Assembly (NCBI RefSeq): GCF_963666525.1
Contig: NZ_OY762905.1
Location: 4,195,501-4,259,500 of the forward strand
Length of the DNA stretch: 64,000 nt
Direction of reading: 5' to 3'
From: an uncultured Cohaesibacter sp.
Lineage (GTDB): Bacteria > Pseudomonadota > Alphaproteobacteria > Rhizobiales > Cohaesibacteraceae
In this document: in pieces, positions 47,332-63,683 of the stretch
Layout of the letters: each line of letters begins with the position of its first letter
Position numbering within the stretch: position 1 is the stretch's first letter
The notes under the pieces: model-generated
What the model was told of the DNA's origin: nothing
Database searches by the model: none
The model's input: the letters and a program-made list of their open reading frames with translations, nothing else
Translations under genes and position numbers: made by a program

Positions 47332-47382
47332 AGTTCCCTCATTTCTGGAGAGCCGAAGAATCAGTTCAGCAGATGATTACAA

Positions 47383-49374
47383 CTAGAAAGCCTGACCTAG
47401 GCCCAAATAAACACCAAATTTGGGCTCGTCCTTGATTTTCTTGAGCGGTACGGCGACATCGAGCCGCAGGGGGCCGATCGGGGTCAGGTAGCGCACACCC
47501 GCGCCAACGCCGGTGTACCATTCATCCTTGAATTGCGGCATCGAGCTGTTGAAGGTGTTGCCCGCGTCGACAAAGGCGGCAAGGCCAATGGTGTCCGTGA
47601 CCTTCATGCGCGCTTCAAGCGAAGCGGTGATGTAGGAACGGCCCCCGGTCGGGTCGTTGTTGGAATCCCTGGGGCCTGCCATCTGATAGGAATAGCCGCG
47701 AATGCTGCCGCCCCCGCCGGTAAAGAAGCGGCGGTCTGTGGGCACATCGCTCTTGGACGCACCGACAATGGAGCCGGCGGAGATCTTCCCGGCGAGCACG
47801 AAGCGCTTGGCCGCATCGATTGCCTGATAGGCTGACAGGGTGGCGCTTGACTTCAGGAAGGCGAGCGAGCCATCGCTGCTGATGGTCGGCTCGGCATCGA
47901 TGAGCGCATAGAAGCCCTCGGTCGGATCGAGCTTGCTGTCGCGCTTGTCATAGGCCAGTTCCAGCGGCGTCGAGAACAGCAGGTTGCTGTCGGTGCCGGT
48001 GCTGTCGGTGATGCGGGCATATTCGGTCTTGAACGCCGCACGGGTCGAAAGCGCGTCCGTCCACTGGTAGCTCAGCCCGACCTCGCCGCTGACGGCTCGC
48101 TTCTGATAAGCATCCGGATTGGTGAAGTCGACCGACAGTTTGGCATCGAACGTGCTGGCAGGGCCGATCACACCGGGTTTCTTGAAGATGATGTCGGCGT
48201 TGTAGTCGAGGTCCTTGACGTCATTCTGACCGATATTGGCAATGGAGCCCTGAACGCGCAGGCTTTCCGCGCCGCCGAACAGGTTGCGATGGACCCAGTA
48301 GCCCTCCAGCCCGACGCCATCAAGGTTGCCGATGGTAATACCGGCACCGATGGTGCGGAACTTGCGTTCCTTGACTGAAATCTCGATGGGTAGCGAGCCA
48401 TCCGCAAACACTCCATCCGCCGGCTTGACAATGACACTGTCGAACACGCCGAGCGCCCGAAGGTTGCGGTTGGCCTTGGCAACGGCGGCCGGGCTGTAGG
48501 TCTCGCCAACCGGAATGGCGGCCTGCTGTACGATGAGGTCGGTGTCGACATCCTCGTTGCCGGTGATCGTCACCTGACCGAAGCGGGCCAGAGGACCATG
48601 ATCAACGCGCAGGGTAACATCCAGCTTGCCAGTCTTGTGATCGGCGGCGAGGGACCGCTCTTCGATTTTGGCAAGGGCGAAGCCGCGGTCTCGATAGTCC
48701 GCAAGAATGGCGTCTTCGGCATCAAGTACAAGCTGGGAATAGGCAGGAGCCCCGGCAATCACGCCATAGCGCTGAAGATCGACCGGCGCGCCGTCGCTCA
48801 ACTGGGCGTCCGGTTTGGAAAAGGTGAACACCGGCCCTGGTTTGACAGCAATGGCGACCTTGACGGATGCGGCTTTGGTCAGGTCCTCATCCAGCGGAAC
48901 CTTGTCATAGCGCACGTCATTGACGGTGATGTCGACGGTGCCGCCATAGAGCCCCTTGCGATAGAGGGCTGCGATCAGCCGCTTCTGGTCACTGCGAGCG
49001 CGCATCAGAAGACCCGTTGTGCCGGAGGCTGGCTCTTCCTTCTTCTCGATCAGCAGGGAAGCGGCTTTCAGCTCATCAGTCAACGCCTCGTCGGCGCTGG
49101 TAAGCGAAACGCTGTAGGTGACTGGATCAGGAATGTCGGCTGTCGGCTTGGCTTTGGATACGGCCTCGATGCCGCTGGTGCTGAACTTGTAGCCAAACAG
49201 CTCAAAGGCCGAGGCCTGTCCGCTCCAGCTCGCCGAGAGCATGGTGGTTGCAAGGCATAAGGACATCGTGGACGCACGCCAGCCCCGGTTGCGCCCCGAA
49301 AGCGCACCGAACCTGTGGTCTTTCCGCAATGTCAGCCGAGACAGCAAAACTGCAAACTCCAAACTCAATGGCAT
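47383..49374 (-). CDS. tamA: Translocation and assembly module outer-membrane protein TamA
   Basis: TamA is a BamA/Omp85-family 16-stranded barrel with N-terminal POTRA domains. The 663-residue protein has POTRA repeats (about 90-340, e.g. FGQVTITGNEDVDTDLI) and a C-terminal surface-antigen barrel with FFTGGGGSIRGYSYQ, which includes the lid-lock RGY motif, and ends in GVYLGLGQAF with a terminal Phe as required for barrel assembly. A hydrophobic export segment MSLCLATTMLSASWSGQASA lies about 37 residues in, so the true start could be ATG 49266; ATG 49374 and TTG 49416 are alternatives, none with a clear ribosome site. tamB follows directly. Confidence 0.92.
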   Translation of the reverse strand: MPLSLEFAVLLSRLTLRKDHRFGALSGRNRGWRASTMSLCLATTMLSASWSGQASAFELFGYKFSTSGIEAVSKAKPTADIPDPVTYSVSLTSADEALTDELKAASLLIEKKEEPASGTTGLLMRARSDQKRLIAALYRKGLYGGTVDITVNDVRYDKVPLDEDLTKAASVKVAIAVKPGPVFTFSKPDAQLSDGAPVDLQRYGVIAGAPAYSQLVLDAEDAILADYRDRGFALAKIEERSLAADHKTGKLDVTLRVDHGPLARFGQVTITGNEDVDTDLIVQQAAIPVGETYSPAAVAKANRNLRALGVFDSVIVKPADGVFADGSLPIEISVKERKFRTIGAGITIGNLDGVGLEGYWVHRNLFGGAESLRVQGSIANIGQNDVKDLDYNADIIFKKPGVIGPASTFDAKLSVDFTNPDAYQKRAVSGEVGLSYQWTDALSTRAAFKTEYARITDSTGTDSNLLFSTPLELAYDKRDSKLDPTEGFYALIDAEPTISSDGSLAFLKSSATLSAYQAIDAAKRFVLAGKISAGSIVGASKSDVPTDRRFFTGGGGSIRGYSYQMAGPRDSNNDPTGGRSYITASLEARMKVTDTIGLAAFVDAGNTFNSSMPQFKDEWYTGVGAGVRYLTPIGPLRLDVAVPLKKIKDEPKFGVYLGLGQAF

Positions 49375-49810
49375 GTTAGCCTGATCAGCTAACCTTAGCT
49401 TAACCAAACTTTCCAAATAAAATGTATCTTTTCATCAGAAATGGCCTTGTTCCATGCAGATTCAATAGCACATTGAATATTATTGAGAAAGCTTTGCAGG
49501 CAGAAACCGTGTCGCAGAGCACAGGGGGCTGCGGGCGGAAATGACCGGAAAGCTCTTTTGGTGTTCTAAGGAACGTCAGGACCATCCCTCATTGTTGGCA
49601 GAAACAGGCGAATGTGTCGCTGTTACGGGTTTCCGCATAGGCATTGACAGCGACAGGGGAGCCTGTGGATGGTCTTGCCCTGGCTCGATCCTGCCATCAC
49701 CAAAGCACCTGATTTGATCCGTCGCAGCAAGAAGATTTGACAAAAAATTGAATTTCGCCTTAGCTCATGGGGTCAATTTTTTGCCGTCTTTTCAAATCAG
49801 GTCATGTTCA
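49375..49810. other. Divergent spacer between tamA and the LysR gene
   Basis: No gene is evident in these 436 bases. One notable element is a two-step inverted repeat: outer arms ACAGGC (49604-49609) and GCCTGT (49661-49666), inner arms TGTCGCTGT (49615-49623) and ACAGCGACA (49647-49655). It could form a branched RNA or cruciform. Promoters for tamA and the LysR gene should lie at the two ends. Confidence 0.45.
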
Positions 49811-50758
49811 ATGGATATTCGCAACTACACCAGCTTTGTCGCTGTTGCCGAATTGATGAATTTTACCAAGGCTGCCGAGCGTCTCAATATTACCCAATCG
49901 GCCCTTTCCCGACAGGTCAAGGCTCTTGAGGATTATCTCGGGGTCAAACTGTTCGAGAAGACAGGCCGCAATATCCGCTTCACCCCGCAAGGGGAAGCAT
50001 TGTTGGCCAAGATCAATAATGTTCTGGTCGCGGACCGGGAACTCAGAACCTTTGCCGGCGATCTGACAGGCGGAGAATCCGGACTTCTGAAGATCGGTGC
50101 CTGCTCTCAGCTGATCGAGCGCTATATGCCGTCTTTTCTCAAACGGTGGACGGAAGACAATCCGGATATCGAGATCCGTCTCGAGGACGGCGGCGGACCG
50201 GAACTGGCCAGCAAGCTCGTGGACGGGGTCTTTCACCTGACGATCAGTGCCGAACCATCGGCCCCGATCGACATTCTGGAAAGCCGTCCGCTGGGCCAAC
50301 TCGGGTTTCTGGCTGTTGGCAACGCCGAATTCCTAGGTGATGCCCAGGAGCCGATAGAGATTGAGGAATTGCTGTCTCTTCCGGTGCTGACGCTGAACAC
50401 CAAGCATGTGTCCCGCGAGGTCTTCGATGCTGCCTGTCGCGTCAGCGGCGTGGTGCCGCGAGTCGTTCTGGAGAGCAACTCTCCCCATACCCTGCTTGCC
50501 ATGGCGATCGGAGGCAACGGCGTCGCCGTTGTTCCTTCCTCAACCCGGCCACGGGAGCCAAAACTGCGCAGCAGGCCCATTTCCCTCAAGGGAGAACCGA
50601 TCCGTTTTGGCATTTGCGCGATGTGGAACATCCGCCAGCCGCTCCCGGCCTACGGCCAGCGTTTCATTGATTCCCTCGGAGAGCACATTTTCTCTGAGCA
50701 ACATCAGGAAGAATTTCCGGCTCAATTCGCACAATATGGATACCTTCAGGTCATATAA
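49811..50758 (+). CDS. LysR-family transcriptional regulator
   Basis: The 315-residue protein has the LysR winged helix at its N-terminus (MDIRNYTSFVAVAELMNFTK, then AAERLNITQSALSRQVKALE) and a co-inducer-binding domain (about 90-300). It belongs broadly to the CynR/CbbR-like group. ATG 49811 begins the conserved domain; a frame from 49748 would add 21 unrelated residues. It lies upstream of, and in the same direction as, the nine-gene importer and enzyme operon, with a 29-bp near-perfect palindrome in between. LysR genes usually diverge from their targets, so the parallel layout is less usual, but the palindrome supports control of that operon. The co-inducer is unknown. Confidence 0.9.
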   Translation: MDIRNYTSFVAVAELMNFTKAAERLNITQSALSRQVKALEDYLGVKLFEKTGRNIRFTPQGEALLAKINNVLVADRELRTFAGDLTGGESGLLKIGACSQLIERYMPSFLKRWTEDNPDIEIRLEDGGGPELASKLVDGVFHLTISAEPSAPIDILESRPLGQLGFLAVGNAEFLGDAQEPIEIEELLSLPVLTLNTKHVSREVFDAACRVSGVVPRVVLESNSPHTLLAMAIGGNGVAVVPSSTRPREPKLRSRPISLKGEPIRFGICAMWNIRQPLPAYGQRFIDSLGEHIFSEQHQEEFPAQFAQYGYLQVI

Positions 50759-51059: not shown

Positions 51060-52031
51060 ATGAGTTTCTTGAAAAACCTCAATCAGGAGAGCATCGTTCT
51101 GGCGATTACCATTGCGATCTTCGCATTGGCCTCGCTAATGTTGCCCGGGTTCTTCACCGCGAACAATCTGGTTGCCATCGTGCGCTCGGTCTCCGTACTG
51201 GGTATTCTGGCGTTGGGAATGGCGATGATTATCATCGGCCGTGGCATCGACCTGTCGATGGTTGCCATCATGGCGATGTCTGTTGCCTGTTATCTGCAGA
51301 TGCTCGGGTCGGGCATGGGGGAGGGCACGGCCCTGCTGCTGACGCTTGCCGGTGTCATTGCCATGGGCCTCATCAACGGCATTCTGGTCGCCTATGCCGA
51401 TGTTCCGGCCATTTTCGTGACCCTTGCCAGTTCTTCCTTCGTATTCGGCTTTGTGCGTTCCCAGCTGATCACCACCGATGCAGTCCCGGTCCCGACCGCC
51501 CATTGGGTGGAGATCCTCGGCGGCTTGCGCTTTTTCAGCGTGCCGGTGGAAGTCTTCATCTTTGCCGGGCTGGCGTTCGCCACCTTCCTGTTCCTGCGCT
51601 ACAGCAAATGGGGCCGTTATGTCTATTACGCCGGTGACAATCCGGAAGCCGCACGCAACTCCGGTATGCCCGTCCGGCCAATGATGGTTCTGCGCTATGT
51701 CATCTCGGCGCTCATTGCCTTCATTGCCGGTGTATTGACCGCTGCCAGCCTGCATTCCATCAACACCCGCATCGTCAACTCCAACCTGCTCTATGACATC
51801 GTGCTGATCACGGTGATCGGCGGCATCGGGCTGTCCGGCGGCAAGGGCGGCGTGCGCAATGTGCTGTTCGGCGCGGCGCTCATCGGCATCATGCTCAACG
51901 CCATGACAATCATCGACATTCCGCTGCTTTATCAGAATCTCATCAAGGCAGGCATCCTGCTCGGCGCCATCATCGTTGATGGCATCCTCAATCCGCGTGA
52001 CGAACAGACCGCGCAGCAGGGGGATATCTGA
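51060..52031 (+). CDS. Ribose-type ABC transporter permease
   Basis: The 323-residue membrane protein belongs to the RbsC/AraH group (BPD_transp_2), with 8-10 helices, GMAMIIIGRGIDLSMVAIMA and the loop AARNSGMPVRPMMVLRYVISA that meets the ATPase. It is the first gene of a long operon (51060-60392). A second permease of the same type is fused to another domain further down, so the channel is probably a heterodimer, unlike RbsC homodimers. GGAGTAGGG precedes ATG 51060. The cargo is not known; relatives take up pentoses, hexoses, autoinducer-2, purines or polyols. Confidence 0.9.
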   Translation: MSFLKNLNQESIVLAITIAIFALASLMLPGFFTANNLVAIVRSVSVLGILALGMAMIIIGRGIDLSMVAIMAMSVACYLQMLGSGMGEGTALLLTLAGVIAMGLINGILVAYADVPAIFVTLASSSFVFGFVRSQLITTDAVPVPTAHWVEILGGLRFFSVPVEVFIFAGLAFATFLFLRYSKWGRYVYYAGDNPEAARNSGMPVRPMMVLRYVISALIAFIAGVLTAASLHSINTRIVNSNLLYDIVLITVIGGIGLSGGKGGVRNVLFGAALIGIMLNAMTIIDIPLLYQNLIKAGILLGAIIVDGILNPRDEQTAQQGDI

Positions 52032-52130
52032 GCTTACCTACCCCCGCGTGGTCCGGGCATCAAACGCCAGAAGTCAAAACAACATCTGAAAACAATCGCA
52101 ATCAACACACCTTTCCAGAGAGGGACAGAC

Positions 52131-53159
52131 ATGAACATCATCAAGACCCTTATGGCCGCCACGGCGGCGCTCACCATCAGCTCCGCTGCGCTCGTCACCC
52201 AGGTGTCGGCCGCAGGCGACCCGGCACCGGAAATCTATGCCAAAGCCATGGCTGGCAAGCGCATCATGCTGGTGCCGATGGCCATGGGATTCGACCTTGC
52301 CCAGGGCTGGGCTGCCATCCTGAAGCGCGAAGTCGACGCCTTTGGCGGCATCTTTGAAACCCGCGACCCCAACTGGAGCGTTGAAGCCGGTGCACAGGCC
52401 ATCACCGAGGCCATTGCCTCCGAGAACAAGCCGGACGTGCTGATCATCATGTCACCTGACATGAACTCCTATTCCAAGCTCATGAAGCGTGCCCAGAAGG
52501 CTGGCATCTATGTGATCCTCGTGGACAATCCGGCCAATTTCAAGGCCGATGCCTATGTCGGCAGCGACTGGACACAGCTGGGTCGTCTCGAAGCCGAAGC
52601 CGTCGTCAAGGGCTGCGGTCCGGATTCCTCCAAGAAGATCGGTCTGGTGCAGGGCGATCAGGTCAACGCAACCAGCCTCTTCCAGTATGAAGGCATCATG
52701 GAAGTGCTTGCCAAATATCCCGAGTTTGAAGTGGTTGCCAAGCCGGACTCCAACTGGGACGCTACCACCTCGCGTAACGTGACCACCACAATGCTGCAGC
52801 AGAATCCGGAAATCTGCGGTGTCATCGACTTCTGGGATGGCGATGCCTCGGGTGCCGCTGCGGCCATTCGCGAAGCTGGAAAGCAGGATAGCGTCTTCCT
52901 CGTCACCACCGGTGGCGGCGAGAAGGCTGCCGATTGTGACCTGATTGCCGATGGCACCTACGGTGCCGTGGTCATGACCGATCTTGCCCAGGAAACCCAC
53001 AACATGGTGGCGATCATCAAGTATCTGCTCCAGAGCGGCCAGCCGGCAGGTACCGCAGCGCCATATATCTATACGCTGCTGAAGGCTACCACCAAGGAAA
53101 ACATGAAGCCTGACAGCTGCTGGGATCTTTCGGCTCTTCAGGCCGAAGCCGGACAATAA
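52131..53159 (+). CDS. Periplasmic binding protein type 1 (ribose-type ABC receptor)
   Basis: The 342-residue precursor has a Sec signal peptide ending near VSA (about 27) followed by a two-lobe type I binding fold. Blocks include KPDVLIIMSPDMNSYSKLMK, AGIYVILVDNP, KIGLVQGDQVNATSLFQYEG and VIDFWDGDASGAAAAIREAG. The last replaces the NDxMAxGA segment common in sugar receptors, so the ligand may not be a simple sugar. Two Cys in the mature protein (about 163 and 225) and a third pair near the C-terminus could form disulfides. A hairpin follows its stop, probably to boost its message over the other subunits. AGAGAGG precedes ATG 52131. Confidence 0.88.
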   Translation: MNIIKTLMAATAALTISSAALVTQVSAAGDPAPEIYAKAMAGKRIMLVPMAMGFDLAQGWAAILKREVDAFGGIFETRDPNWSVEAGAQAITEAIASENKPDVLIIMSPDMNSYSKLMKRAQKAGIYVILVDNPANFKADAYVGSDWTQLGRLEAEAVVKGCGPDSSKKIGLVQGDQVNATSLFQYEGIMEVLAKYPEFEVVAKPDSNWDATTSRNVTTTMLQQNPEICGVIDFWDGDASGAAAAIREAGKQDSVFLVTTGGGEKAADCDLIADGTYGAVVMTDLAQETHNMVAIIKYLLQSGQPAGTAAPYIYTLLKATTKENMKPDSCWDLSALQAEAGQ

Positions 53160-53169
53160 TGTCATGCGG

Positions 53170-53192
53170 GCAGGGGCCCTTGTGGCCTCTGC
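53170..53192 (+). promoter_or_regulatory. Intercistronic hairpin after the receptor gene
   Basis: GCAGGGGCC and GGCCTCTGC form a nine-pair stem (one G-T) around five bases, 10 bases after the receptor stop. Only CTTTC follows, so it is more likely an RNA-stabilising or partial-termination element than a full terminator. The same device occurs after tctC. Confidence 0.6.
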
Positions 53193-53358
53193 CTTTCATT
53201 CGCCGGTTCCGGACAGATCGCCTGCCCGAAACCCCACTGATCTGAAGGCCGGATGTTCGGTCTCTCTGTGTCGGTGTCGATGAAATTCATTTCCCAATCC
53301 GTCCCTTTCGGAACCCTCCCTCCGTGACGGATGGCTCAAGTCGTCGGAAATTTGATAG

Positions 53359-55482
53359 ATGGCCTTTCGTGAAAAACTGCAAGCATGGCGCTACAATGCC
53401 ATTCCCGATCACCTCATCGGGGAGATTCTGACCAAGAGATGGACGGATAACGCCATTCCCTTTCTTGCCCTGGTGATCACAGTGGCTGCCTTCGGATCGG
53501 CGATTCCGGGCTTCTTCAAACCCTATTCCTTGCAGGAGTCGACGCGCCAGCTCGGTGAATTCTCGCTTGTCGTGACCGGGCTTACGGTTGTCATGCTGGG
53601 GGGTGGTATCGACCTGTCGGTCGGCTCCATCTTTGCGCTTGCGACCTTTGCGTCGGTTGCCACCTTCTTCATATTCGAAGCCCCGGTCTGGGTCTGCCTG
53701 CTGGCGGCCATCGCTACCGGCGTCGCTTGCGGTGCGATCAATGGCTATCTCATCGGGTTCCTGCGTCTGCGCGCCTTCCTGACCACGCTCGTGACCTTCA
53801 TCATCGGACGGGCGCTGTTCGACATTCTGGTCGTGCAATATGGCGCTGCGACCCAGATGTCCTTTGCCTCCTCGGACCTTTGGGACTTCATCGGCGACGG
53901 TACGCTGTTTGGCTTCTCGATGCCGGTTCTGACCGCCATCGTGTTCGCGCTGATCACCCACATCGCCCTCACGCGCTCCCGTCCGGGCTGGCATGTGCAG
54001 GCGGTCGGCGGATCGCGCCGCTCTGCGCACAATGCCGGTATCCGGGTGCGGCGCATCGTCTTCATGACCTACATTTTTTCCGGCTTCTGTGCCGGAGTAT
54101 CCGGCTTCCTGATGGCAACACGCCTGTCAAGCGCAGGACCCGGCACCGGCAACGGGCTGGAAATCCTTGCGCTGACGGCTGCGGTGGTCGGTGGCAACTC
54201 TCTTGGCGGTGGGCGTGGCTCGGTGGCCAAGGGCATCATGGGGGCGGTCATCGTTCTGGTGATGACCAACGGCCTCATCCGCCTCGGTTTCGGTACTGGC
54301 ACCAACCAGATGGTACTCGGCATCATGCTGGCCTTCGCGGTGACCATCGATATCCGCTGGCTGAAGAACCGCCACAAGGTTCTCAACGAAATCTATGTCG
54401 CGCCGGTCTACCTCAAGATGGGCAAGGCCGAATCCGCAGAGCCGGGGTCTGGTTCCGCCTATGCCCTCAACAACAAGCTGTCCTCGGCCCAGCATATCGG
54501 CCTTGGCGAGCTGGAAGGGCCGGAAGACGTCATTCTCGACCGCAACGACAACCTCTATTGCGGCACGCGTCACGGCGAGATCGTCCGTTTCTTTGCTCCG
54601 GACTACAAGCGCTCGGAAGTCTTCGCCCATGTAGGCGGCTTCCCGCTCGGGCTGGCCTTTGACAAGGATGAAAACCTCATCTCCTGCGTCGGTGCCATGG
54701 GGCTCTACAAGATTTCACCGGATCGCGAGGTTACGCGGCTTTCAGCCGAGACCAGACGTTCACTGACCTCCATCGTCGATGACGCCCGTATGCGCGATCC
54801 CAACGACCTCGACATCGCACCGGATGGCAAGATCTATTTCACCGACAGTACCAAGCGTTACGATGCCCATGAATGGATGCTCGATTCCATCGAAAACCGT
54901 GGCACCGGTCGCCTGCTGGTCTATGATCCCAAGGATGGCTCCACCAAGACCCTGCTCGACGGCTATCGTTACACCAACGGTGTCTGCATCGCCCATGACG
55001 GTCAGTCTCTGTATTTCGCAGAGAGCTGGAGAAGCCGCATTCATCGCTACTGGATCGCCGGTCCCAAGGCGGGCACCGTGGAATGCGTCATCAAGGACAT
55101 GCCGGGCTACACTGACAACATCAACCGTGCTTCCGACGGCACCTACTGGATGGCCTGGCTTGGCATGCGCACTCCAAGCTTTGACTTGTCCCTGCGTCAT
55201 CCGGACATGCGCAAGCGTATGACCCGCCGACTGCCACAGGACGACTGGCTGTTCCCGAACATCAACACCGGCGGCATCGTCAAATTCGATGACAGTGGCA
55301 AGATCATCCAGACCATGGGCGATCTTACCGGTCAGAATCACCCGATGGTGACCTCGATGCGCGAGCACAAGGGCAAACTCTTCATCGGCGGCATCCTGAA
55401 CAACCGCATCGGTCTGTTTGACATCGAAGGTGCCGACCCGACATGGACCGGCATGACGTCCTATTGGGGAGAAAAAGCATGA
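53359..55482 (+). CDS. ABC permease fused to a strictosidine-synthase-like beta-propeller
   Basis: The 707-residue protein joins an RbsC-type permease (about 1-345, with GGGIDLSVGSIFALA and the coupling loop SAHNAGIRVRRIVFMTYI) through a linker to a six-bladed propeller (about 373-700). The propeller has the strictosidine-synthase-like/APMAP pattern: DPNDLDIAPDGKIYFTDS, GRLLVYDP, TNGVCIAHDG, SRIHRYWIAGPKAGT and MPGYTDNINRASDGTYW. Such propellers include calcium-dependent lactonases and arylesterases. The reading frame is continuous, and the stop overlaps the next start, so the fusion is real. RbsC C-termini are cytoplasmic, so the propeller should face the cytoplasm at the channel exit. Substrate channelling on entry is inference. 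Confidence 0.88.
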   Translation: MAFREKLQAWRYNAIPDHLIGEILTKRWTDNAIPFLALVITVAAFGSAIPGFFKPYSLQESTRQLGEFSLVVTGLTVVMLGGGIDLSVGSIFALATFASVATFFIFEAPVWVCLLAAIATGVACGAINGYLIGFLRLRAFLTTLVTFIIGRALFDILVVQYGAATQMSFASSDLWDFIGDGTLFGFSMPVLTAIVFALITHIALTRSRPGWHVQAVGGSRRSAHNAGIRVRRIVFMTYIFSGFCAGVSGFLMATRLSSAGPGTGNGLEILALTAAVVGGNSLGGGRGSVAKGIMGAVIVLVMTNGLIRLGFGTGTNQMVLGIMLAFAVTIDIRWLKNRHKVLNEIYVAPVYLKMGKAESAEPGSGSAYALNNKLSSAQHIGLGELEGPEDVILDRNDNLYCGTRHGEIVRFFAPDYKRSEVFAHVGGFPLGLAFDKDENLISCVGAMGLYKISPDREVTRLSAETRRSLTSIVDDARMRDPNDLDIAPDGKIYFTDSTKRYDAHEWMLDSIENRGTGRLLVYDPKDGSTKTLLDGYRYTNGVCIAHDGQSLYFAESWRSRIHRYWIAGPKAGTVECVIKDMPGYTDNINRASDGTYWMAWLGMRTPSFDLSLRHPDMRKRMTRRLPQDDWLFPNINTGGIVKFDDSGKIIQTMGDLTGQNHPMVTSMREHKGKLFIGGILNNRIGLFDIEGADPTWTGMTSYWGEKA

Positions 55483-56534
55483 TCCTCGATCCCATCCTCG
55501 ACATTTTCCGTGGCAAGGCGGTGACCATTCCGCCCATGGATGGCGCCTTCCGCCCCAACACGGTGCTCGATGAAGCCGATATCCTTACCCATCTGTCCGA
55601 GCCGGACAATCTGGCCATCTTCAAGGACGAGCTGATTGCCACTTCCGGTAATGCGATTTATGTCGTCAACAAGGGGGCCGAGCCGAAACTGCTGCGCGCT
55701 TTCGAATCGCCAATCACGGCCCTTGCCGTTTCGACCGATGACAAACTCGCGGTTGCTCTGGAAACCGGACAGCTGTTTGTCGACGGTGAACCCGTTCGTC
55801 TGCTGGAGGAAATCAAGGCGATCACGGCGCTGGCCTATTCCTACGACGGCTCCCTGTGGCTGGCCAATGGCTCATCCGAACATGCCTGCTCGGACTGGGC
55901 GGCCGACCTGATGAGCAAGAAGGCCTGCGGGTCCATCTGGGTGCGGCATTCGCCAAAGGAGGCCTTTGAGAAGGTTGCCGGAGGGCTGGCCTATCCCTAT
56001 GGCCTCTGTCCGCTGAGCGGAGGGCGCGTGGCTTTCTCGGAAAGCTGGCGTCACAGGGTGATGATCATGGACGCGGAGAAGAACATTTCCGTGCTGATCG
56101 ACCAGATTCCGGGCTATCCCGCCCGCATTATGCCAACAGCCGAGGGCGGTGCCATCCTGTCGGTGTTCGCGCCGCGCAACCGGCTTGTTGAGCTGGTGCT
56201 GCAGGAAAAGCACTATCGCCACGACATGATGGAAAGCGTGCCGCGTGAATACTGGATTGCTCCGGCGCTCTATTCCAACCGCAGTTTCCTTGAGCCGCTG
56301 CAGTGTGGTGGCATCCGCACCATGGGCGTCTACAAGGCATGGGCTCCGGCCCGTTCCTACGGCATGGTGGTGCGGCTCGGCAAGACCATGAACCCGCTCA
56401 CCAGCATGCACAGCCGAGCCAACGGCAACCGCCACGGCGTCTGCTGTGCCATCGAACATGATGGCCAGATCATTGTGGCCTCCAAGGGTGGGGATGTCCT
56501 GCTCGACATCGCAGATTTCAAGGTGGAGGGCTAA
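55479..56534 (+). CDS. Stand-alone strictosidine-synthase-like/SMP-30-like beta-propeller
   Basis: The 351-residue protein looks like a second six-bladed propeller related to the C-terminal half of the preceding fusion. Blade motifs include GGLAYPYGLCPLSGGRVAFS, SWRHRVMIMD and IPGYPARIMPTAEGGAILSV, and the C-terminus reads EHDGQIIVASKGGDVLLDI. There is no signal peptide, so it is cytoplasmic. ATG 55479 lies inside the previous stop (ATGA). The match to known lactonases is weaker than in the fusion protein, and I cannot identify metal ligands with confidence. It may be a degenerate paired subunit or an enzyme with a different substrate. The ATPase gene follows after four bases. Confidence 0.75.
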   Translation: MILDPILDIFRGKAVTIPPMDGAFRPNTVLDEADILTHLSEPDNLAIFKDELIATSGNAIYVVNKGAEPKLLRAFESPITALAVSTDDKLAVALETGQLFVDGEPVRLLEEIKAITALAYSYDGSLWLANGSSEHACSDWAADLMSKKACGSIWVRHSPKEAFEKVAGGLAYPYGLCPLSGGRVAFSESWRHRVMIMDAEKNISVLIDQIPGYPARIMPTAEGGAILSVFAPRNRLVELVLQEKHYRHDMMESVPREYWIAPALYSNRSFLEPLQCGGIRTMGVYKAWAPARSYGMVVRLGKTMNPLTSMHSRANGNRHGVCCAIEHDGQIIVASKGGDVLLDIADFKVEG

Positions 56535-56538
56535 GGAC

Positions 56539-58035
56539 ATGGATCCCATCATTCGCATGGAAAAGATCACCAAGGCCTACCGTGGCGTGCCTGCCATCAA
56601 GGACGTGGATTTCGAACTGCACAAGGGCGAGGTCCATGCGCTGCTTGGCGAAAATGGTGCGGGCAAATCGACCCTTACCAAAATGATGGCCGGTGTTGTC
56701 GAACCGACCGCAGGCAAGATGTTCCATCACGGCAAGGAAACGGTCTTTACCAACCCGAACGAGGCGCTGGAAGCCGGGATCGCCATGGTGTTTCAGGAGA
56801 CCAGTCTGGTGCCATCGATGACCGTGGCGCAGAACCTTTATCTGGGCTCGGAGAATTTCCTCAACCGACTGCGCGGCACCTTCATTTCCGCCCAGCAGTT
56901 CCTGCAGTCGCTGAACTTCTCTGTCGACCCCACAGCACTGGTGGCAACCCTCGGGGCGGCCAAGCGGCAGATGGTTGAAATCGCCCGTGCGGTGCATCAC
57001 AAGGCCGAAGTGATCATCTTCGACGAGCCGACGGCAACCCTGACGCCGGAAGAGAAACGCCATTTCTTCGCGCTCATTGAACGCCTCAAGAAGAGTGGCG
57101 TGTCGATCATCTTTATCAGCCACGCGCTCGAAGAGGCGCTGCAGATTTCCGACCGTATCACCATCCTGCGTGATGGCGAGCTGGTGGCCAGCGACAGGAC
57201 GGAGACCTTCACCCGCGAGTCAATCATTGCCGCCATGGTCGGCAGGACCCTCTCTGGCGAGCTCTACCGTGACCGTGGCGAAAGCGGCGTGCGCAAGGCT
57301 GGCAAGAAGGTGTTGTCCGTGCAGGACATCTCCATGGGAGCCATGGTCCGCAACAACTCCTTTTCGATCTTTGCAGGCCAGATCACCGGCGTCTTCGGGT
57401 TGATCGGCTCGGGCCGCACCGAGACCTTCAAGATCGTTTCCGGCATCTACAAGCGCGACTTCCTGCGTGGCGGCACCATCGTGCTCAACGAAAAGCCGAC
57501 CCGTTACTATGTGCCGCGCGAAGCGGTCAATGACGGCATCGTCTATGTGACCGAGGACCGCAAGAGCGAGGGCTTTTTCGAGACCATGTCGATTGCCGAG
57601 AATATCTACGCAGGACTGATCGCTGCCGGACACGACAAGGCATGGTATGTCAGCCACAAGGAGATGAAGGACGTCGCCGCCGACTGGTCGGGAAAACTCA
57701 ACGTCCGCGCCATCAACGACAATGCTCGCGTGGTCGAATTGTCCGGGGGCAACCAGCAGAAGGTGGTTATCGGCAAGGGCCTCGTGCAGCAGCCGAAACT
57801 GGTCATCTTCGATGAACCGACTCGCGGTGTAGACGTCGGCGCGATTGCCGAAATTCACCAGATCATCAACGATCTGGCCGATCAGGGTCTGGCCGTGGTG
57901 GTGATTTCGTCCTACCTGCCGGAGATCATGAACCTTTCTGATCGCATCCTGGTCTGCCGACAGGGGCGCATCGTGGAGGAATTCTCGCCCTCAGAGGCAA
58001 CAGAAGAGAAAATCATGTATGCGGCGGTCCATTGA
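56539..58035 (+). CDS. Ribose-type ABC transporter ATPase with two nucleotide domains
   Basis: The 498-residue protein has the RbsA/XylG layout of two fused nucleotide-binding domains. The first has Walker A LGENGAGKST and Walker B VIIFDEPTATLTPEEK, with its signature replaced by LGAAKRQMVEIARAV. The second has the usual degenerate Walker A GLIGSGRTE and a good signature LSGGNQQKVVIGKGL with IFDEPTRGVDVGA. It energises the two permeases upstream. GGAGGG precedes ATG 56539; a longer frame starting inside the previous gene is not credible. Its position after the propeller gene, not beside the permeases, shows the propeller genes are an integral part of the operon. Confidence 0.94.
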   Translation: MDPIIRMEKITKAYRGVPAIKDVDFELHKGEVHALLGENGAGKSTLTKMMAGVVEPTAGKMFHHGKETVFTNPNEALEAGIAMVFQETSLVPSMTVAQNLYLGSENFLNRLRGTFISAQQFLQSLNFSVDPTALVATLGAAKRQMVEIARAVHHKAEVIIFDEPTATLTPEEKRHFFALIERLKKSGVSIIFISHALEEALQISDRITILRDGELVASDRTETFTRESIIAAMVGRTLSGELYRDRGESGVRKAGKKVLSVQDISMGAMVRNNSFSIFAGQITGVFGLIGSGRTETFKIVSGIYKRDFLRGGTIVLNEKPTRYYVPREAVNDGIVYVTEDRKSEGFFETMSIAENIYAGLIAAGHDKAWYVSHKEMKDVAADWSGKLNVRAINDNARVVELSGGNQQKVVIGKGLVQQPKLVIFDEPTRGVDVGAIAEIHQIINDLADQGLAVVVISSYLPEIMNLSDRILVCRQGRIVEEFSPSEATEEKIMYAAVH

Positions 58036-58068
58036 CGGGCTTGCCGGACTTAATCAAGGAGTATGACA

Positions 58069-58923
58069 ATGGCTGCCAAGCGCGCAATGTGGACCTACTA
58101 CAAGGGTGAGTGGCATGAGGGTGATGTGCGCATTCTGGGCGCCGCGTCACACGGTACGTGGATCGGATCTCTGGTGTTTGACGGGGCGCGCCTGTTCGAG
58201 GGCGTCTCTCCGGACCTCGATCTGCACTGCCAGCGTGTCAACCGCTCGGCGGAAGCCCTGATGCTGAAGCCGACCCTCACCGGCGAGGAAATCGAAGCGC
58301 TCGCGATGGAGGGGATCAAGAAATTCGCTCCCAATACCGACGTCTACATCCGACCGATGTATTGGGCAGAGGAGGGGGATGTCGGCCTGCTGCCGCCGCT
58401 CGCATCGTCGACCGACTTCGCGCTCTGCCTTGAGGAAATCCCGATGGTTGAACCAACCGGTTTTTCCATCACCACAACCCAGTATCGCCGTCCGACCATT
58501 GCGGTTGCGCCAACCAATGCCAAGGCCGCCTGCCTCTATGCCAACAATGCCCGCATGGTGCGCGAGGCCCAGTTGAAGGGGTTCGACAATGCACTGGTGA
58601 CCGATTGTGCCGGCAATGTCGCAGAGCTTGCCACCGCCAACGTCTTCATGGTTCGCGGCGGGGAGGTCTTCACCTCAATCCCGAACGGCACTTTCCTTGC
58701 AGGCATCACCCGCAAGCGCGTGCTTGGACTGCTGCGCGGCGCTGGCTACACCGTCCACGAAATGACCCTGACGGTTCAGGACTTCATGGAAGCGGACGAA
58801 ATCTTTTCTACCGGCAACATCTCCAAGGTGATTCCGGTATCTCGCATAGAAGACCGGGAACTCGCATACGGGCCTATCACCAGGAAGGCCCGCTCTCTGT
58901 ACATGGAATGGGCACACGCCTAG
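58069..58923 (+). CDS. Class IV aminotransferase, branched-chain aminotransferase-like
   Basis: The 284-residue protein is a fold-type IV PLP enzyme. Lys152 in TNAKAACLYANNARM is the likely Schiff-base Lys, and GNVAELATANVFMV plus FLAGITRKRVL are the cofactor-binding blocks of IlvE-like proteins. Members transfer amino groups between branched-chain amino acids, D-amino acids or (R)-amines and keto acids. Here it lies in an importer operon, far from amino-acid biosynthesis genes, so a catabolic role on the imported compound is more likely than leucine, isoleucine or valine synthesis. ATG 58069 is chosen for its distance from AAGGAG; ATG 58063 is an alternative. The AhpD-like gene starts 12 bases later. 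Confidence 0.85.
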   Translation: MAAKRAMWTYYKGEWHEGDVRILGAASHGTWIGSLVFDGARLFEGVSPDLDLHCQRVNRSAEALMLKPTLTGEEIEALAMEGIKKFAPNTDVYIRPMYWAEEGDVGLLPPLASSTDFALCLEEIPMVEPTGFSITTTQYRRPTIAVAPTNAKAACLYANNARMVREAQLKGFDNALVTDCAGNVAELATANVFMVRGGEVFTSIPNGTFLAGITRKRVLGLLRGAGYTVHEMTLTVQDFMEADEIFSTGNISKVIPVSRIEDRELAYGPITRKARSLYMEWAHA

Positions 58924-58935
58924 GAGGAAACCAAG

Positions 58936-59343
58936 ATGGCAACTGTCAAATTGCTCACCAACGAAGAAGCCGACAAGATCCCGGCCGTAAAGGAAGTCTT
59001 TGACGAAATCCGCGACTTGCGCAAAACCGACTTCATCAACAATTTCTGGCGGGCGCTGGGCGCGGCCGATCCTGCCCTGCTGAAACGCACATGGGAAGGC
59101 CTCAAGGCTGTCATGATGACGCCGGGCAACATCGACCCGATGACCCGCGAGATGATCTATATCGCCGTATCGGCAGCCAACTCCTGCTCCTATTGCCTCC
59201 ATTCCCACACCGCTCAGGCCCGCGCCAAGGGCATGACGGACGACACCTATGCGGAGCTGTTGTCGATTGTGGGTCTGGCTGCCCAGACCAACCATCTGGT
59301 GACCGCAATGCAGGTCCCTGTCGACCCTGAATTCATGGCTTGA
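58936..59343 (+). CDS. AhpD/carboxymuconolactone decarboxylase-family protein
   Basis: The 135-residue all-helical protein has the CMD-family motif NSCSYCLHSHTAQARAKGMT with redox pair Cys84 and Cys87 and His91 in the AhpD arrangement. AhpD-type members act as alkyl hydroperoxidases, while CMD proper lacks the Cys pair; so a thiol-based peroxidase or disulfide role fits better than decarboxylation. GGAGGA precedes ATG 58936. It lies between the aminotransferase and quinone-oxidoreductase-like genes in the same operon. A role in removing peroxide or reactive products of the pathway is inference. Confidence 0.85.
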   Translation: MATVKLLTNEEADKIPAVKEVFDEIRDLRKTDFINNFWRALGAADPALLKRTWEGLKAVMMTPGNIDPMTREMIYIAVSAANSCSYCLHSHTAQARAKGMTDDTYAELLSIVGLAAQTNHLVTAMQVPVDPEFMA

Positions 59344-59420
59344 TCGCCAGCTTGACCAAATGACTTTGGCGCCGTCGCCGCTCCGGGGAGCTGGCGTCGG
59401 TGCAAAAATCGGAGAAGAAA

Positions 59421-60392
59421 ATGGATATGGCACTTGTCGCTTCCAGACCTGGCGGTCCGGAAGTCATGGAGTGGTGCGCGCTGGAAACAGGCACACCCGG
59501 CCCGAACGAGGCGCTGGTGCGCCACACCGCGATTGGCGTCAACTTTATCGATGTCTACAACCGCACGGGGCTCTACCCCTGGCCGGATAGCACAATGATC
59601 CCGGGAGCCGAGGCTGCTGGCGTGGTCGAAGCCATCGGTGAAGGGGTCGAAGGCCTCAAGGTTGGTGACAGGGTTGCCTATGTCCTCAAGTTTGGCGCCT
59701 ATCGCGAACGCCGTGTGCTTGCTGCCGACCGTCTGGTCGTGTTGCCCGATGGCGTCTCGGATGATCTTGCTGCATCTGTCATGCTGAAGGGGTTGACTGC
59801 GCAATATCTCGTCACCTCATCCTACGCAGTCAAGGCCGGGGACACAGTGCTGGTGCATGCCGCTGCTGGCGGGGTCGGGCTCATTCTGGGCCAGTGGCTG
59901 AAGGCGCTTGGTGCCCGCGCTATCGGCACGGCAGGCTCCGACGAGAAGGTGGCACTGGCGCTCAAGCATGGCTACAGCGACGTGATCAATTATCGCGAAG
60001 AGAATTTTGCCGAAAAGGTCATGGACCTGACCGGCAGGCAAGGGTGCGAAGTGGTCTACGACAGTGTCGGCAAGGATACATGGCGTGGATCGATTGCATG
60101 TCTCAAACCATTCGGAATGTTCGCAAATTTCGGCCAGTCGTCCGGCATGATCGATGATTTCAAGCTCTCAGATCTGGCCAGCGGGTCTAAGGCCGCCTGT
60201 CGTCCCGTTCTGTTCGATTATGTGGCCAAACGGGCTGATCTGGAAATGCGCGCTGCCGACCTGTTCGACCGACTCGTCAGCGGTGCGGTCAAGGCAGATG
60301 TCGTCGCATCCATGCCGCTCAAGGATGCCGCCGAGGCCCACAAGGCACTGGAAGGTCGCAAGACCACCGGCGCGACCATTCTTAAACCCTGA
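59421..60392 (+). CDS. Zinc-independent quinone oxidoreductase-like dehydrogenase (MDR superfamily)
   Basis: The 323-residue protein is a medium-chain reductase of the QOR/zeta-crystallin group. It has GVNFIDVYNRTGLYP near the N-terminus, VLVHAAAGGVGLILGQWLKALGA (start of the NADPH-binding fold, AAxGGVG motif) and GATILKP at the end. Zinc ligands of alcohol dehydrogenases are absent. Such enzymes reduce quinones or alpha,beta-unsaturated carbonyls with NADPH. GGAGAAG precedes ATG 59421. It is the last gene of the operon, followed by a strong terminator. With the aminotransferase and AhpD-like protein it suggests reduction of an enone or quinone intermediate. Confidence 0.9.
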   Translation: MDMALVASRPGGPEVMEWCALETGTPGPNEALVRHTAIGVNFIDVYNRTGLYPWPDSTMIPGAEAAGVVEAIGEGVEGLKVGDRVAYVLKFGAYRERRVLAADRLVVLPDGVSDDLAASVMLKGLTAQYLVTSSYAVKAGDTVLVHAAAGGVGLILGQWLKALGARAIGTAGSDEKVALALKHGYSDVINYREENFAEKVMDLTGRQGCEVVYDSVGKDTWRGSIACLKPFGMFANFGQSSGMIDDFKLSDLASGSKAACRPVLFDYVAKRADLEMRAADLFDRLVSGAVKADVVASMPLKDAAEAHKALEGRKTTGATILKP

Positions 60393-60459
60393 ATAATGGC
60401 CTTGCGCCTTGAAGAATCGCGCGCAAGCGCTCTTGAAAACAAGCACCGAGCAAAAGAAG

Positions 60460-60492
60460 CACCCGGAAGCGCGAGCCGCCCCGGGTGTTTTT
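60460..60492 (+). terminator. Rho-independent terminator of the importer and enzyme operon
   Basis: CACCCGG (60460-60466) pairs perfectly with CCGGGTG (60481-60487), followed by five T. It lies 68 bases after the last stop and faces the convergent amino-acid importer operon. Confidence 0.88.
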
Positions 60493-60537
60493 CGTTTGTG
60501 CCAGACTGATGCTTCAGACTGGCGAAGGAGACGGCTC

Positions 60538-61386
60538 TTAGTAGACGGTCACGTCAAAGCCGAACCATTTCATCGACAGTTCCTTGATGGTGCCGTCGTC
60601 GCGAGCCGAAGCGATGGCTTCATCGAACATGGCTTTCAGTTCGTCGGAGCCCTTGCGCAGGCCGAGCGAGCTGCCCTTGCCCAGAATGCCGCCCTGGAAA
60701 CGGGGACCAGCCAGAACCATGCCTTTGTTTGCCGGGTCTTTCATGGCGGTGGAGATGTAGGCGGTGGAGGCCATGATGGCATCGACACGGCCGGACATCA
60801 GGTCGAGGTCATGTTCCTGGGTCTTGCCATATTCACGGATCTCGGCAACGTCAGCCAGATTTTCCTGCAGGAAGCGTTCTGCAATGGCAGATGACTGCAC
60901 GCCAATGATCTTGCCTTTGAACAGGGGCTTGATTTCTTCGATGGCTTTCTTGGCTTCTTCCGGTTTGGAAGCAAGCGGGAAGACGTCGCCATTCAGCGGC
61001 AGCTTGGCAAGATCGGAATCTTCAAGCACGCCGAAGGTCTGGCCGGTAGAGCCATAAGGGATCGAGAAGTCGATCACTTCAGCGCGCTTGGCCGTTGCGG
61101 ACATGCCGGACATGATGGCGTCAAACTTGCCGGCGTTGAGTGCCGGAATGATGCCTTTCCAGTCCTGCACGACCCATTCGCATTCCACTTTCATGCGCTC
61201 GCAGAGGATCTTGCCAAGGTCGATTTCAAAGCCTTCCAGCGTGCCATCGGCATTGGTGGAGTTCCACGGAGGGAATGCCCCTTCGGTGCCCAGTTTGACG
61301 GTTTTGATGTCCGAAGCGAGGGCTGGCCCTGCCGCCAGCATTGCTGCTGTCATGGCCACCCCGAGAAGTCGGGTCCAGATTTTCAT
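60538..61386 (-). CDS. Polar amino-acid ABC transporter receptor (HisJ/ArgT family)
   Basis: The 282-residue precursor has a Sec signal peptide ending near ALA (about 24) and a type II family 3 binding fold. Blocks include LGTEGAFPPWNSTNADGTLEG, GFEIDLGKILCERMKVECEW and FDAIMSGMSATAKRAEVIDF, the last containing the ligand-binding Ser/Thr and Arg seen in HisJ and LAO proteins. Those residues bind the alpha-carboxylate and amino group of basic or polar amino acids and opines. It is the last gene of the minus-strand operon. AGGGAAAG precedes ATG 61386; a longer frame reaching into the ATPase gene is not credible. Confidence 0.92.
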   Translation of the reverse strand: MKIWTRLLGVAMTAAMLAAGPALASDIKTVKLGTEGAFPPWNSTNADGTLEGFEIDLGKILCERMKVECEWVVQDWKGIIPALNAGKFDAIMSGMSATAKRAEVIDFSIPYGSTGQTFGVLEDSDLAKLPLNGDVFPLASKPEEAKKAIEEIKPLFKGKIIGVQSSAIAERFLQENLADVAEIREYGKTQEHDLDLMSGRVDAIMASTAYISTAMKDPANKGMVLAGPRFQGGILGKGSSLGLRKGSDELKAMFDEAIASARDDGTIKELSMKWFGFDVTVY

Positions 61387-61456
61387 TTCGCTTTCCCTTC
61401 TGTGGTGATCGCCGGCCGACCGGGATGGCTTGGCCGGAGGTATTGATTGCGGCCTG

Positions 61457-62239
61457 TCAGCCTGCAATGAATTTCTGAAAACGGTCGTTGCTCTTGTCAT
61501 TGAAGAGATCTTCCGGGCTGCCTTCGGCATCAATCTGCCCCTGGTGCAGGAAGACGACGCGGTTGGAGACATCCCGTGCAAAGCCCATTTCGTGGGTGAC
61601 GACCAGCATGGTGCGACCTTCCTCGGCCAGCCCCCGCATGACGCGCAGCACTTCACCGACCAGCTCCGGGTCGAGCGCCGATGTCGGCTCGTCAAACAGC
61701 AGCACATCTGGGTGCTGTGCCAGCGCACGAGCGATGGCCGCGCGCTGTTGCTGGCCACCGGAAAGATGCGAAGGGTAGAAGTCTCGCTTATCGGCAATGC
61801 CGACCTTGTCGAGGATTTCCTTGGCTTCCTCGATGCAGTCCTGCCTGTCACGACCTTGCACATGAATAGGCGCCTCGATGACATTCTCGAGGATCGTCTT
61901 GTGGGACCAGAGATTGAACGACTGGAACACCATGCCGACACGAGTGCGCAGACGATCCACCTGCTTGCGGTCGGCGGGTTTGACGACGCCCTTTCTGTCC
62001 GTCACCAGCCTGATGGTCTCCGCTCCAACCGTAACCGTGCCGGAGGTCGGGATTTCCAGCATGTTGATACAGCGCAGCATCGTCGACTTGCCAGAGCCGG
62101 AAGAGCCGAGAATGGAAACCACTTCGCCTTCATGGGCCTTCAGGGTTACGCCCTTGAGGACTTCGAGATCGCCGAAATACTTGTGCAGATCAGTGAGGCT
62201 GACAGCGACAGCGCTGTTTTGGGAGGCGGGACCGGTCAC
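61457..62239 (-). CDS. Polar amino-acid ABC transporter ATPase (HisP/OccP family)
   Basis: The 260-residue protein has Walker [10 protein letters not shown], signature [16 protein letters not shown], Walker [15 protein letters not shown] and switch THEMGFAR. The insert [23 protein letters not shown] is typical of HisP, NocP and OccP. Translation starts at GTG 62239, overlapping the upstream permease stop by four bases. It serves the two permeases just upstream and the receptor downstream. The group imports basic amino acids and opines; the neighbouring M20 peptidase suggests an N-acylated or peptide-like amino acid could also be relevant. Confidence 0.94.
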
Positions 62240-62973
62240 GAGATTTCTCCAGCAGATTCATTTTCAAGGGCAAGGGCGTTGAGAATGCGTGGCTCGCGCA
62301 GATGCGGCGTCAGCTTGTATTCAAGCGCCATGACGATACGGGTGAGGATGAAGTTGATGGCCAGATAGATGGCCCCGGCCACGATGAAGACCTCGATCAC
62401 CCGGTAGGTCTCGGAGACCAGCTTGGCGGCAAGCCCTGTGATCTCCATGATGGTGATGATGGAGGCCAGAGAGGTTGCCTTGACCATCAGGATGAGCTCG
62501 GTGCCATAGGCTGGCAGAGCCTGCCTTATGGCCAGAGGAAAGACGATGCGGCGGAACAGCATGAAGCCCGACATGCCCGAGGCACGGGCCGCTTCCACCT
62601 GTCCATGGGGCACAGAGAGCAGGCCGCCGCGAATGACCTCACTGGCATAGGCTGCGGTGTTGAGGGTCAGCGCGATGATGGCGCACCAGTAGGGATCCCT
62701 CAGGAATGTCCATGCGAAGGAATGGCGCACCGCCGGAAACTGGCTGAGACCGTAATAGATGAGGAACAGCTGCACCAGCAGCGGCGAGCCGCGGAAGACA
62801 AAGAGATAGCCCTGCGCAAACCAGCCCAGTGGCCGGATGCCCGAGAGGCGCATCGTTGCCAGCAGCAGTGCAAGGAAGGCACCGAGGAAGGTCGACAGGA
62901 AGGCCAGCAGCAGGGTCAAAGGGATGCCGGGGATCAGGGTGATCAGCGACTCCCAGAAGAATTGCATATCCAT
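62236..62973 (-). CDS. Polar amino-acid ABC transporter permease (HisM family)
   Basis: The 245-residue inner-membrane protein has about five helices and the coupling loop [21 protein letters not shown], followed by [20 protein letters not shown], as in HisM/OccM. Its ATG lies in the stop of the preceding permease gene (ATGA), and its own stop overlaps the ATPase start, so all four importer genes are tightly coupled. The two permeases pair as HisQ-HisM. Substrate is presumably that of the HisJ-like receptor. Confidence 0.93.
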
Positions 62974-63683
62974 CAGCTTCGTCTCACCCCTTTGCTGAAC
63001 CGCTTCTCGGCGGTGTGGAAACTGATGCTGGAGATGGTCGTGATCACCAGATAGAGAATGGCCGCCGCGAAATAGAAGTCAAACGGTTGGCGGGTGGATC
63101 CGGCACCGACCTGACTTTGCCTGAGCAGCTCGACAACGCCCGTGACGGACACCAGCGCCGACTCCTTCAGCACGATCTGCCAGACGTTGCCCAGCCCCGG
63201 CAGGGCATGGCGTAGGACCAGCGGTGCAACGATGCGGCGAAACCGCATCATCCGGGGCATGCCACAGGCAACCGCCGCCTCGATTTCACCCTTGGCAACG
63301 GCCCGGTAGGCGCCTCGGAATACTTCCGTATGCTGGGCGCCCGAGGTGATGCCGATGGCCATGGCACCGGCCACAAAGCCGGGCAGGCCGATGAAACCAT
63401 CCGAGCCGAACAGACGCCCCAGCCATGTGAGAAAGGCGCTGCCGCCGAAATAGAACAGATAGATGACCAGAAGGTCCGGAATGCCGCGCAGGACCGTGGT
63501 GTAGACATCGGCCAGCGCCCGCCAGAAGCGGTTGCCCGATATCTTGGCCCATGCGGCAAAGGCGCCAAAGATGGCGCCGATGGTAAAGCCGCAAAGCGCC
63601 AGCACCATGGTGACCAGAGCGCCCAGCAACATGAAGGCTCCCCAGCCGCCTTCGCCGAAGCCCATCAGTTGAAAGAAGTTCAC
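62973..63683 (-). CDS. Polar amino-acid ABC transporter permease (HisQ family)
   Basis: The 236-residue inner-membrane protein has about five helices, TTVLRGIPDLLVIYLFYFGG and the coupling loop IEAAVACGMPRMMRFRRIVAP with RHALPGLGNVWQIVLKESAL, typical of HisQ/OccQ. AGGAG-like sequence precedes ATG 63683. It is the first importer gene after the M20 peptidase gene, which ends 120 bases upstream. A modest inverted repeat (63744-63749 with 63771-63776) sits in that gap and may limit read-through from the peptidase gene. Confidence 0.92.
   Translation of the reverse strand: MNFFQLMGFGEGGWGAFMLLGALVTMVLALCGFTIGAIFGAFAAWAKISGNRFWRALADVYTTVLRGIPDLLVIYLFYFGGSAFLTWLGRLFGSDGFIGLPGFVAGAMAIGITSGAQHTEVFRGAYRAVAKGEIEAAVACGMPRMMRFRRIVAPLVLRHALPGLGNVWQIVLKESALVSVTGVVELLRQSQVGAGSTRQPFDFYFAAAILYLVITTISSISFHTAEKRFSKGVRRS

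Follow-up and report, generated by a model that had tools for sequence, protein, structure and literature searches.

The DNA analysed here, referred to as the window, is a stretch of 64,000 nucleotides from the genome, a single contig of 5.18 Mb, of an uncultured marine Cohaesibacter sp. and contains an operon of importer and enzyme genes on its + strand. The third of these genes encodes, as judged from its sequence, a single protein of 707 amino acids (aa) in which an RbsC-type permease (residues ~1–340) is followed by a propeller of the strictosidine-synthase/SMP-30 type (~367–707). This permease::propeller fusion belongs to a five-gene core consisting of a permease (perm1), a periplasmic solute-binding protein (SBP), the fusion, a free propeller (prop2) and an ATPase. 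Because this core was found complete, in this order and fused in 122 of 133 loci, the arrangement exceeds chance. We propose, with a probability of roughly 0.4, that it represents a CUT2-type importer whose permease-tethered propeller hydrolyses a lactone or an ester at the cytoplasmic exit.

For the comparison 135 stretches were used, and the two that gave no propeller match were dropped before counting. Of the remaining 133 loci, 80 were taken as the top 80 of a single scan and are biased to Mesorhizobium, and the set includes overlapping stretches (L174 and L175, with an identical fusion) as well as one organism from two collections. The core was counted from tblastn matches because the codon-based gene caller misses some prop2 genes. 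Nine of the 11 loci that miss the core are severed by sequence ends; the other two, L183 and L184, come from the same phylum, have unfused propellers without importer, and are the exceptions to the in-frame fusion present in 131 of the 133. The unfused propeller of these two loci (in G809 and G781) has 369 aa, is 37–39% identical and has a distant QOR-like gene nearby. Named distant loci were found on plasmids of Pantoea, Paraburkholderia, Shinella, Rhizobium, Sulfitobacter, Salipiger, Celeribacter and Paracoccus.

The fusion itself is uniform, measuring 702–707 residues from the aligned start in the 80 named genome loci. Across 134 fusions, including that of the window, which fall into 70 clusters at 90% and 22 at 70% identity, W334 and P388 are always 51–54 residues apart, so that the junction is nearly constant in length, and a basic stretch C-terminal to the last helix, KNRHK, is mostly retained. 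The closest protein from a named organism, C. haloalkalitolerans, is 99.6% identical. Of 297 genomes sampled from the order, 35 gave a propeller match at E 1e-80 or better. Despite this frequency annotation hides the fusion, since plasmid records label it variously as SMP-30-family protein, ABC transporter permease or RbsC.

The features of the locus in the window are the following:

49811..50758, + strand: LysR-type regulator (Pfam HTH_1 and LysR_substrate; the open reading frame is listed from 49748, and the start at 49811 was chosen)
51060..52031, + strand: perm1, CUT2-type permease, 323 aa (BPD_transp_2, E 1.7e-28)
52131..53159, + strand: SBP, periplasmic binding protein, 342 aa (Peripla_BP_4, E 1e-42)
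53359..55482, + strand: permease::propeller fusion, 707 aa (BPD_transp_2 at 65–327; SSL_N, Str_synth and SGL within 367–602)
55479..56534, + strand: prop2, putative free propeller, 351 aa (from similarity to the fused propeller, a predicted model and a fold match)
56539..58035, + strand: two-domain importer ATPase (two ABC_tran stretches; AraG/RbsA-like in NCBIfam, under the equivalog cut-offs)
58063..58923, + strand: AT4, class IV aminotransferase, BCAT-like (Aminotran_4; NCBIfam PRK13356, 492.7 bits, cut-off 262)
58936..59343, + strand: AhpD-like protein with a CxxC motif, SCSYC (CMD; TIGR00778, 58.7 bits, cut-off 27.8)
59400..60392, + strand: QOR-like NAD(P)H reductase (ADH_zinc_N and ADH_N; PRK10754, 325.9 bits, under the cut-off of 348)
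60456..60496, + strand: intrinsic terminator (hairpin at ~60456–60491, core stem CACCCGG/CCGGGTG, then TTTTT)

A preliminary description of this DNA had proposed eight co-directional genes at 51060–60392, several of them with overlapping or near-touching ends, that stop at a single strong terminator and encode a ribose-type importer as well as an aminotransferase of class IV, a protein of the AhpD type and a reductase, and all of this is borne out. The eight reading frames all lie on the + strand, the prop2 start (ATG 55479) overlaps the stop of the fusion gene by 4 bases, and the remaining gaps are 99, 199, 4, 27, 12 and 56 bases, with gene starts that are our own choice among the possible starts. 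The terminator hairpin reaches −20 kcal/mol (z −3.15; 1 of 200 shuffles equally good) and is followed by a T run. The binding protein with Peripla_BP_4, the permeases with BPD_transp_2 and the ATPase with two ABC_tran domains are those of a CUT2 importer, and profiles likewise place the three enzymes in the families named. The two strictosidine-synthase-like propellers of that description stand in so far as both proteins are propeller-like, but the first is the C-terminal half of the permease and the second lacks a family match; neither the fusion nor the loss of most site residues in prop2 had been recognised.

With regard to the fused propeller, Str_synth, SGL and SSL_N all score above their Pfam cut-offs, and among solved structures TGW6 (8kg3, E 2e-22) is its best sequence match. 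Four of its residues, E389, N540, D586 and N587, are invariant in all 134 fusions and all 22 clusters, and position 482 holds N in 88 and D in 46 of the 134 (by cluster, D in 19 and N in 3). As mapped by sequence alignment, the metal-site residues are thereby kept in the fused propeller, with putative equivalents in paraoxonase and SMP-30. The catalytic residue of plant strictosidine synthase is Glu309. The conserved positions of the fused propeller align with TGW6 residues that PMC10958001 compares with Ca2+-chelating residues of DFPase, gluconolactonase and Drp35; TGW6 is reported there as a hydrolase of indole-3-acetic acid (IAA)-glucose.

The free propeller has no Pfam match at E 0.001 and no NCBIfam family. 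It aligns with the fused propeller at 23% identity over 236 columns (E 2e-13), and its predicted model (mean pLDDT 84) has strictosidine synthase as best fold in the PDB, with a TM-score of 0.64 by query, so that prop2 is predicted to have a propeller fold. At the position of E389 it has D in 116 and E in 5 of 130 sequences, at that of N482 T in 119 of 130, at that of D586 A, S or G in all 130, and at that of N587 R in 125 of 130; N540 is retained in 13 of 130. Only the acidic residue at the first position is therefore left of the metal site. Nevertheless prop2 is retained as a gene beside the fusion in the five-gene core. Going by these residues, the fused propeller looks catalytic, and prop2 looks dead but conserved.

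Several observations weigh against a hydrolase tethered at the channel exit. Because 62 of 362 propeller columns are invariant among the clusters, the four site columns are weak evidence if taken alone. Each of the 21 other cluster representatives is more similar to the window in its propeller half than in its permease half, which fits either a structural role or a chemistry that all clades have in common and sits badly with a clade-specific hydrolase. RbsC-type permeases have ten helices and both termini inside the cell, and perm1 has 10 hydrophobic segments; because hydropathy gave just 8 segments in the fused permease, a cytoplasmic position of the propeller is something that we infer, from the RbsC-type topology, the ten segments of perm1, the basic stretch and the helices of the predicted model of the fusion, which shows ~10 long ones at low confidence (pLDDT 46.5). 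In addition, PMC10958001 reports that the crystal of TGW6, which by alignment has the same residues, showed no Ca2+.

Regulatory C-terminal domains tune transport in some ABC importers, and both propellers might likewise be non-catalytic, forming a cytoplasmic gate, a sensor or an assembly platform that binds solute, product or signal and tunes transport. The persistence of the prop2 gene after the loss of most of its site, the nearly constant linker, the better conservation of the propeller half, which does not track the cargo, and the lack of detectable Ca2+ in TGW6 would all suit such a role; the invariance of E389, N540, D586 and N587 in the fused and not in the free propeller is hard to explain without a site, and we regard this explanation as unlikely, if a serious one.

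Building on the observed gene content, fusion, conservation, sequence-level site and variable cargo, we infer the following topology, hydrolysis, substrate class and coupling. In the periplasm the SBP would capture a small, neutral compound resembling a sugar, for example a lactone or an ester, and the two permeases and the ATPase would carry it inward, as their families suggest. At the channel exit the tethered cytoplasmic propeller would hydrolyse it to a charged acid unable to leave the cell, while prop2 may act as a structural or regulatory partner. The product would then be handed to the adjoining enzymes. In the window, where these are the aminotransferase, the AhpD protein and the reductase, it may be a 2-oxo or 2-amino acid; a sister clade would have mevalonate as the product, to be oxidised by a degradative 3-hydroxy-3-methylglutaryl-CoA (HMG-CoA) reductase and split by HMG-CoA lyase. 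Hydrolysis of a lactone or ester, as envisaged in the preliminary description, stays plausible for an importer linked to propellers of a hydrolase superfamily. An active fused propeller would unite uptake and the first step of catabolism in one protein, for which we know of no precedent among ABC importers. More tentatively, ABC importers of this kind may form a new class in which translocation is coupled to hydrolysis, each substrate being cut as it leaves the channel and thereby trapped. This would be the hydrolytic equivalent of group translocation, with a dead second propeller as constant partner and with one clade as a dedicated mevalonolactone importer.

The genes accompanying the core vary. 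Beyond AT4, AhpD and QOR, cargo was profiled for selected genes, so that it is given here without a denominator. In distant loci the profiled or recorded cargo includes acyl-CoA synthetases, synthetase::enoyl-CoA hydratase fusions, alcohol and aldehyde dehydrogenases, short-chain dehydrogenases, an acyl-CoA dehydrogenase and, in L177, an FGGY kinase, and it often acts on acids, alcohols or acyl-CoA. An acyl-CoA synthetase::enoyl-CoA hydratase of ~885 aa lies directly 3' of the importer ATPase in L190, L187, L172, L191 and L173 (two of them, L190 and L173, profiled and three assigned by clustering), and these five loci group together in the fusion tree as a supported clade, with 1 of 500 shuffles as low. 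For the HMG-CoA reductase and the alcohol/aldehyde dehydrogenase groups, with three rows each, 91 and 97 of 500 shuffles were as low, which is no more clustering than expected by chance.

A conserved propeller with variable cargo would also be expected if the propeller stripped one common group off conjugates, for example the sugar from acyl-sugar esters; an importer of the sugar type would then take up many acids in conjugated form, and the released acid, and hence the cargo, would vary. The sugar-type importer, the IAA-glucose hydrolase TGW6 as best solved relative and the acyl-CoA ligases among the cargo speak for this; the window operon, on the other hand, contains no sugar kinase or isomerase, and a mevalonate conjugate is chemically less plausible than the lactone, which makes this explanation improbable.

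Near loci were defined by a propeller at least 70% identical to that of the window and room downstream (n = 75); 43 distant loci also had room. AhpD is present in 74 of the 75 near and in none of the 43 distant loci, AT4 in 20 of the near ones (19 near the core, as the copy in L044 lies far upstream and is not adjacent) and QOR in 24. All three occur together in 17 of the 75 and AhpD alone of the three in 47, and none of the three was found on the strand of the core at 45% identity or more in the 43 distant loci. The preliminary description had treated importer, aminotransferase, AhpD and reductase as parts of one pathway and had proposed conservation of gene order as a check; the order holds for the five-gene core, whereas the three enzymes vary, so that one pathway for the whole set is not upheld. 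A dedicated pathway, with hydrolysis of the substrate by both propellers followed by transamination and reduction through AT4, AhpD and QOR, is accordingly very improbable despite the contiguous genes with one terminator, the 17 complete near loci and the case of Shinella PSBB067, where all three genes lie immediately 5' of the core, since AhpD so often stands alone, the distant loci have none of the three, prop2 lacks most site residues and G219, of the same genus, is missing AT4 between ATPase and AhpD.

AT4, AhpD and QOR thus appear to be cargo, with the importer core as the conserved part, and AhpD appears as the sole cargo firmly tied to the near clade. Near AhpD relatives also occur in genomes without the fusion. 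In G243 (L246/L270) and G229 (L233), which are not among the 49 genomes with a propeller match, ATPase remnants (79 and 74 residues matched) lie beside AT4-AhpD-QOR or AhpD alone, which looks like a decayed importer with retained cargo.

A degradative HMG-CoA reductase was found in five loci (L125, L163, L175, L196 and, as a fragment, L162), in three of which (L163, L175 and L162) an HMG-CoA lyase follows 3' of the ATPase, directly so in L163. In L125, on a plasmid of Shinella HZN7, and in L163 the reductase lies directly upstream of perm1; no lyase was found 3' of the core in L125, where two other genes stand instead. In the fusion tree L125, L163, L162 and L175 form one starred set of four. 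L162 and L175 were profiled after the tree had grouped them, and both have the reductase upstream and the lyase downstream, with those of L162 severed by contig ends and scoring under curated cut-offs. In L196, which lies outside this set, genes for a CoA-transferase and an enoyl-CoA hydratase come after that of the reductase. A divergent gene with MocR-like profile matches, under their cut-offs, was seen in L125, L163, L175 and L196. Because reductase and lyase make up the known route of mevalonate catabolism, as in Pseudomonas mevalonii, the importers of these loci most likely bring in mevalonate, as far as their neighbourhood tells, and all five are apparent mevalonate-use operons. Since the fusion carries a hydrolase-type site, neutral mevalonolactone is a natural candidate, and this clade offers it as a directly testable substrate.

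For the window itself mevalonate is out as substrate, as a degradative HMG-CoA reductase had 0 matches in its genome (G000), the same search being positive in 5 of 14 control genomes. The BCAT-like aminotransferase points to an acid with a 2-oxo or 2-amino group, e.g. from an amino-lactone; against this, AT4 and QOR were not found in most near-relative loci. Further relatives of AT4 (up to 56%) and of QOR (up to 49%) are present elsewhere in the genome. No NCBIfam equivalog cut-off was reached for a named system (ribose, arabinose, allose, xylose, autoinducer 2 or rhizopine), with the outcome for the ATPase resting on the best 25 of 190 matches. AhpD gave no clue to the pathway either: around 11 AhpD relatives, picked for 1.5-kb flanks without a full core, BLAST comparison of the genes within ~6 kb showed little in common beyond ABC ATPases (27–44% identity).

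Compared with known systems, the binding protein, permease and two-domain ATPase families are those of the ribose-type CUT2 importers RbsABC, AraFGH and AlsABC, whereas here one permease bears a propeller, a second propeller adjoins, and permeases, binding protein and ATPase reach no substrate-specific NCBIfam cut-off. Among the plant strictosidine-synthase-like proteins, TGW6 shares the site residues in the alignment, but in the present case the propeller is tethered to a bacterial ABC permease. SMP-30/gluconolactonase, Drp35, DFPase and paraoxonase are alike in the SGL match and, following PMC10958001, in the site pattern, but sequence similarity is weak (paraoxonase E 0.055) and the propeller here is permease-fused. 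Loci L163, L175 and L162 (cut) resemble mevalonate catabolism with reductase and lyase genes flanking the importer core, unlike the genome of the window. The same genome also has, at ~C1:1705040-1711960 (L185), an unfused SGL propeller with a binding protein, CUT2 importer genes and an alcohol dehydrogenase; in contrast to the present operon its genes are separate and its sequences distant, and it would read as a sugar-oxidation operon.

Literature searches gave no described pathway that matches, in agreement with the preliminary description. Among open-access papers none was found on a permease::propeller fusion or its five-gene importer, nor on an ABC importer for mevalonate, and the available passages of PMC12292504 contain nothing on the operon or transporter. 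The parts belong to known families; what we found no published description of is their recurrence as a five-gene importer in which the fusion is paired with a free propeller.

As for the remainder of the operon, the LysR gene lies 301 bases 5' of perm1, a placement shared by part of the related loci, and from its position it likely controls the operon. In the PDB the SBP comes closest to entries named as ribose ABC binding proteins (E ~1e-14); solved relatives are 4tvi and 4jxu for AT4 and 2ouw for the AhpD-like protein. For the permease half of the fusion the PDB gave no relative at E 1e-5. The terminator was not listed on the + strand by a simple scanner with a loop limit of 8, and a fold of 60393–60480, a boundary that severs the stem, was not significant (z −0.74). 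Two large reading frames of 1329 and 677 aa at 43342–49416 on the − strand resemble by eye a TamB/TamA pair. Beyond the operon, convergent reading frames at 60538–63683 on the − strand resemble, again by eye, a polar-amino-acid ABC importer with a binding protein, an ATPase and two permeases.

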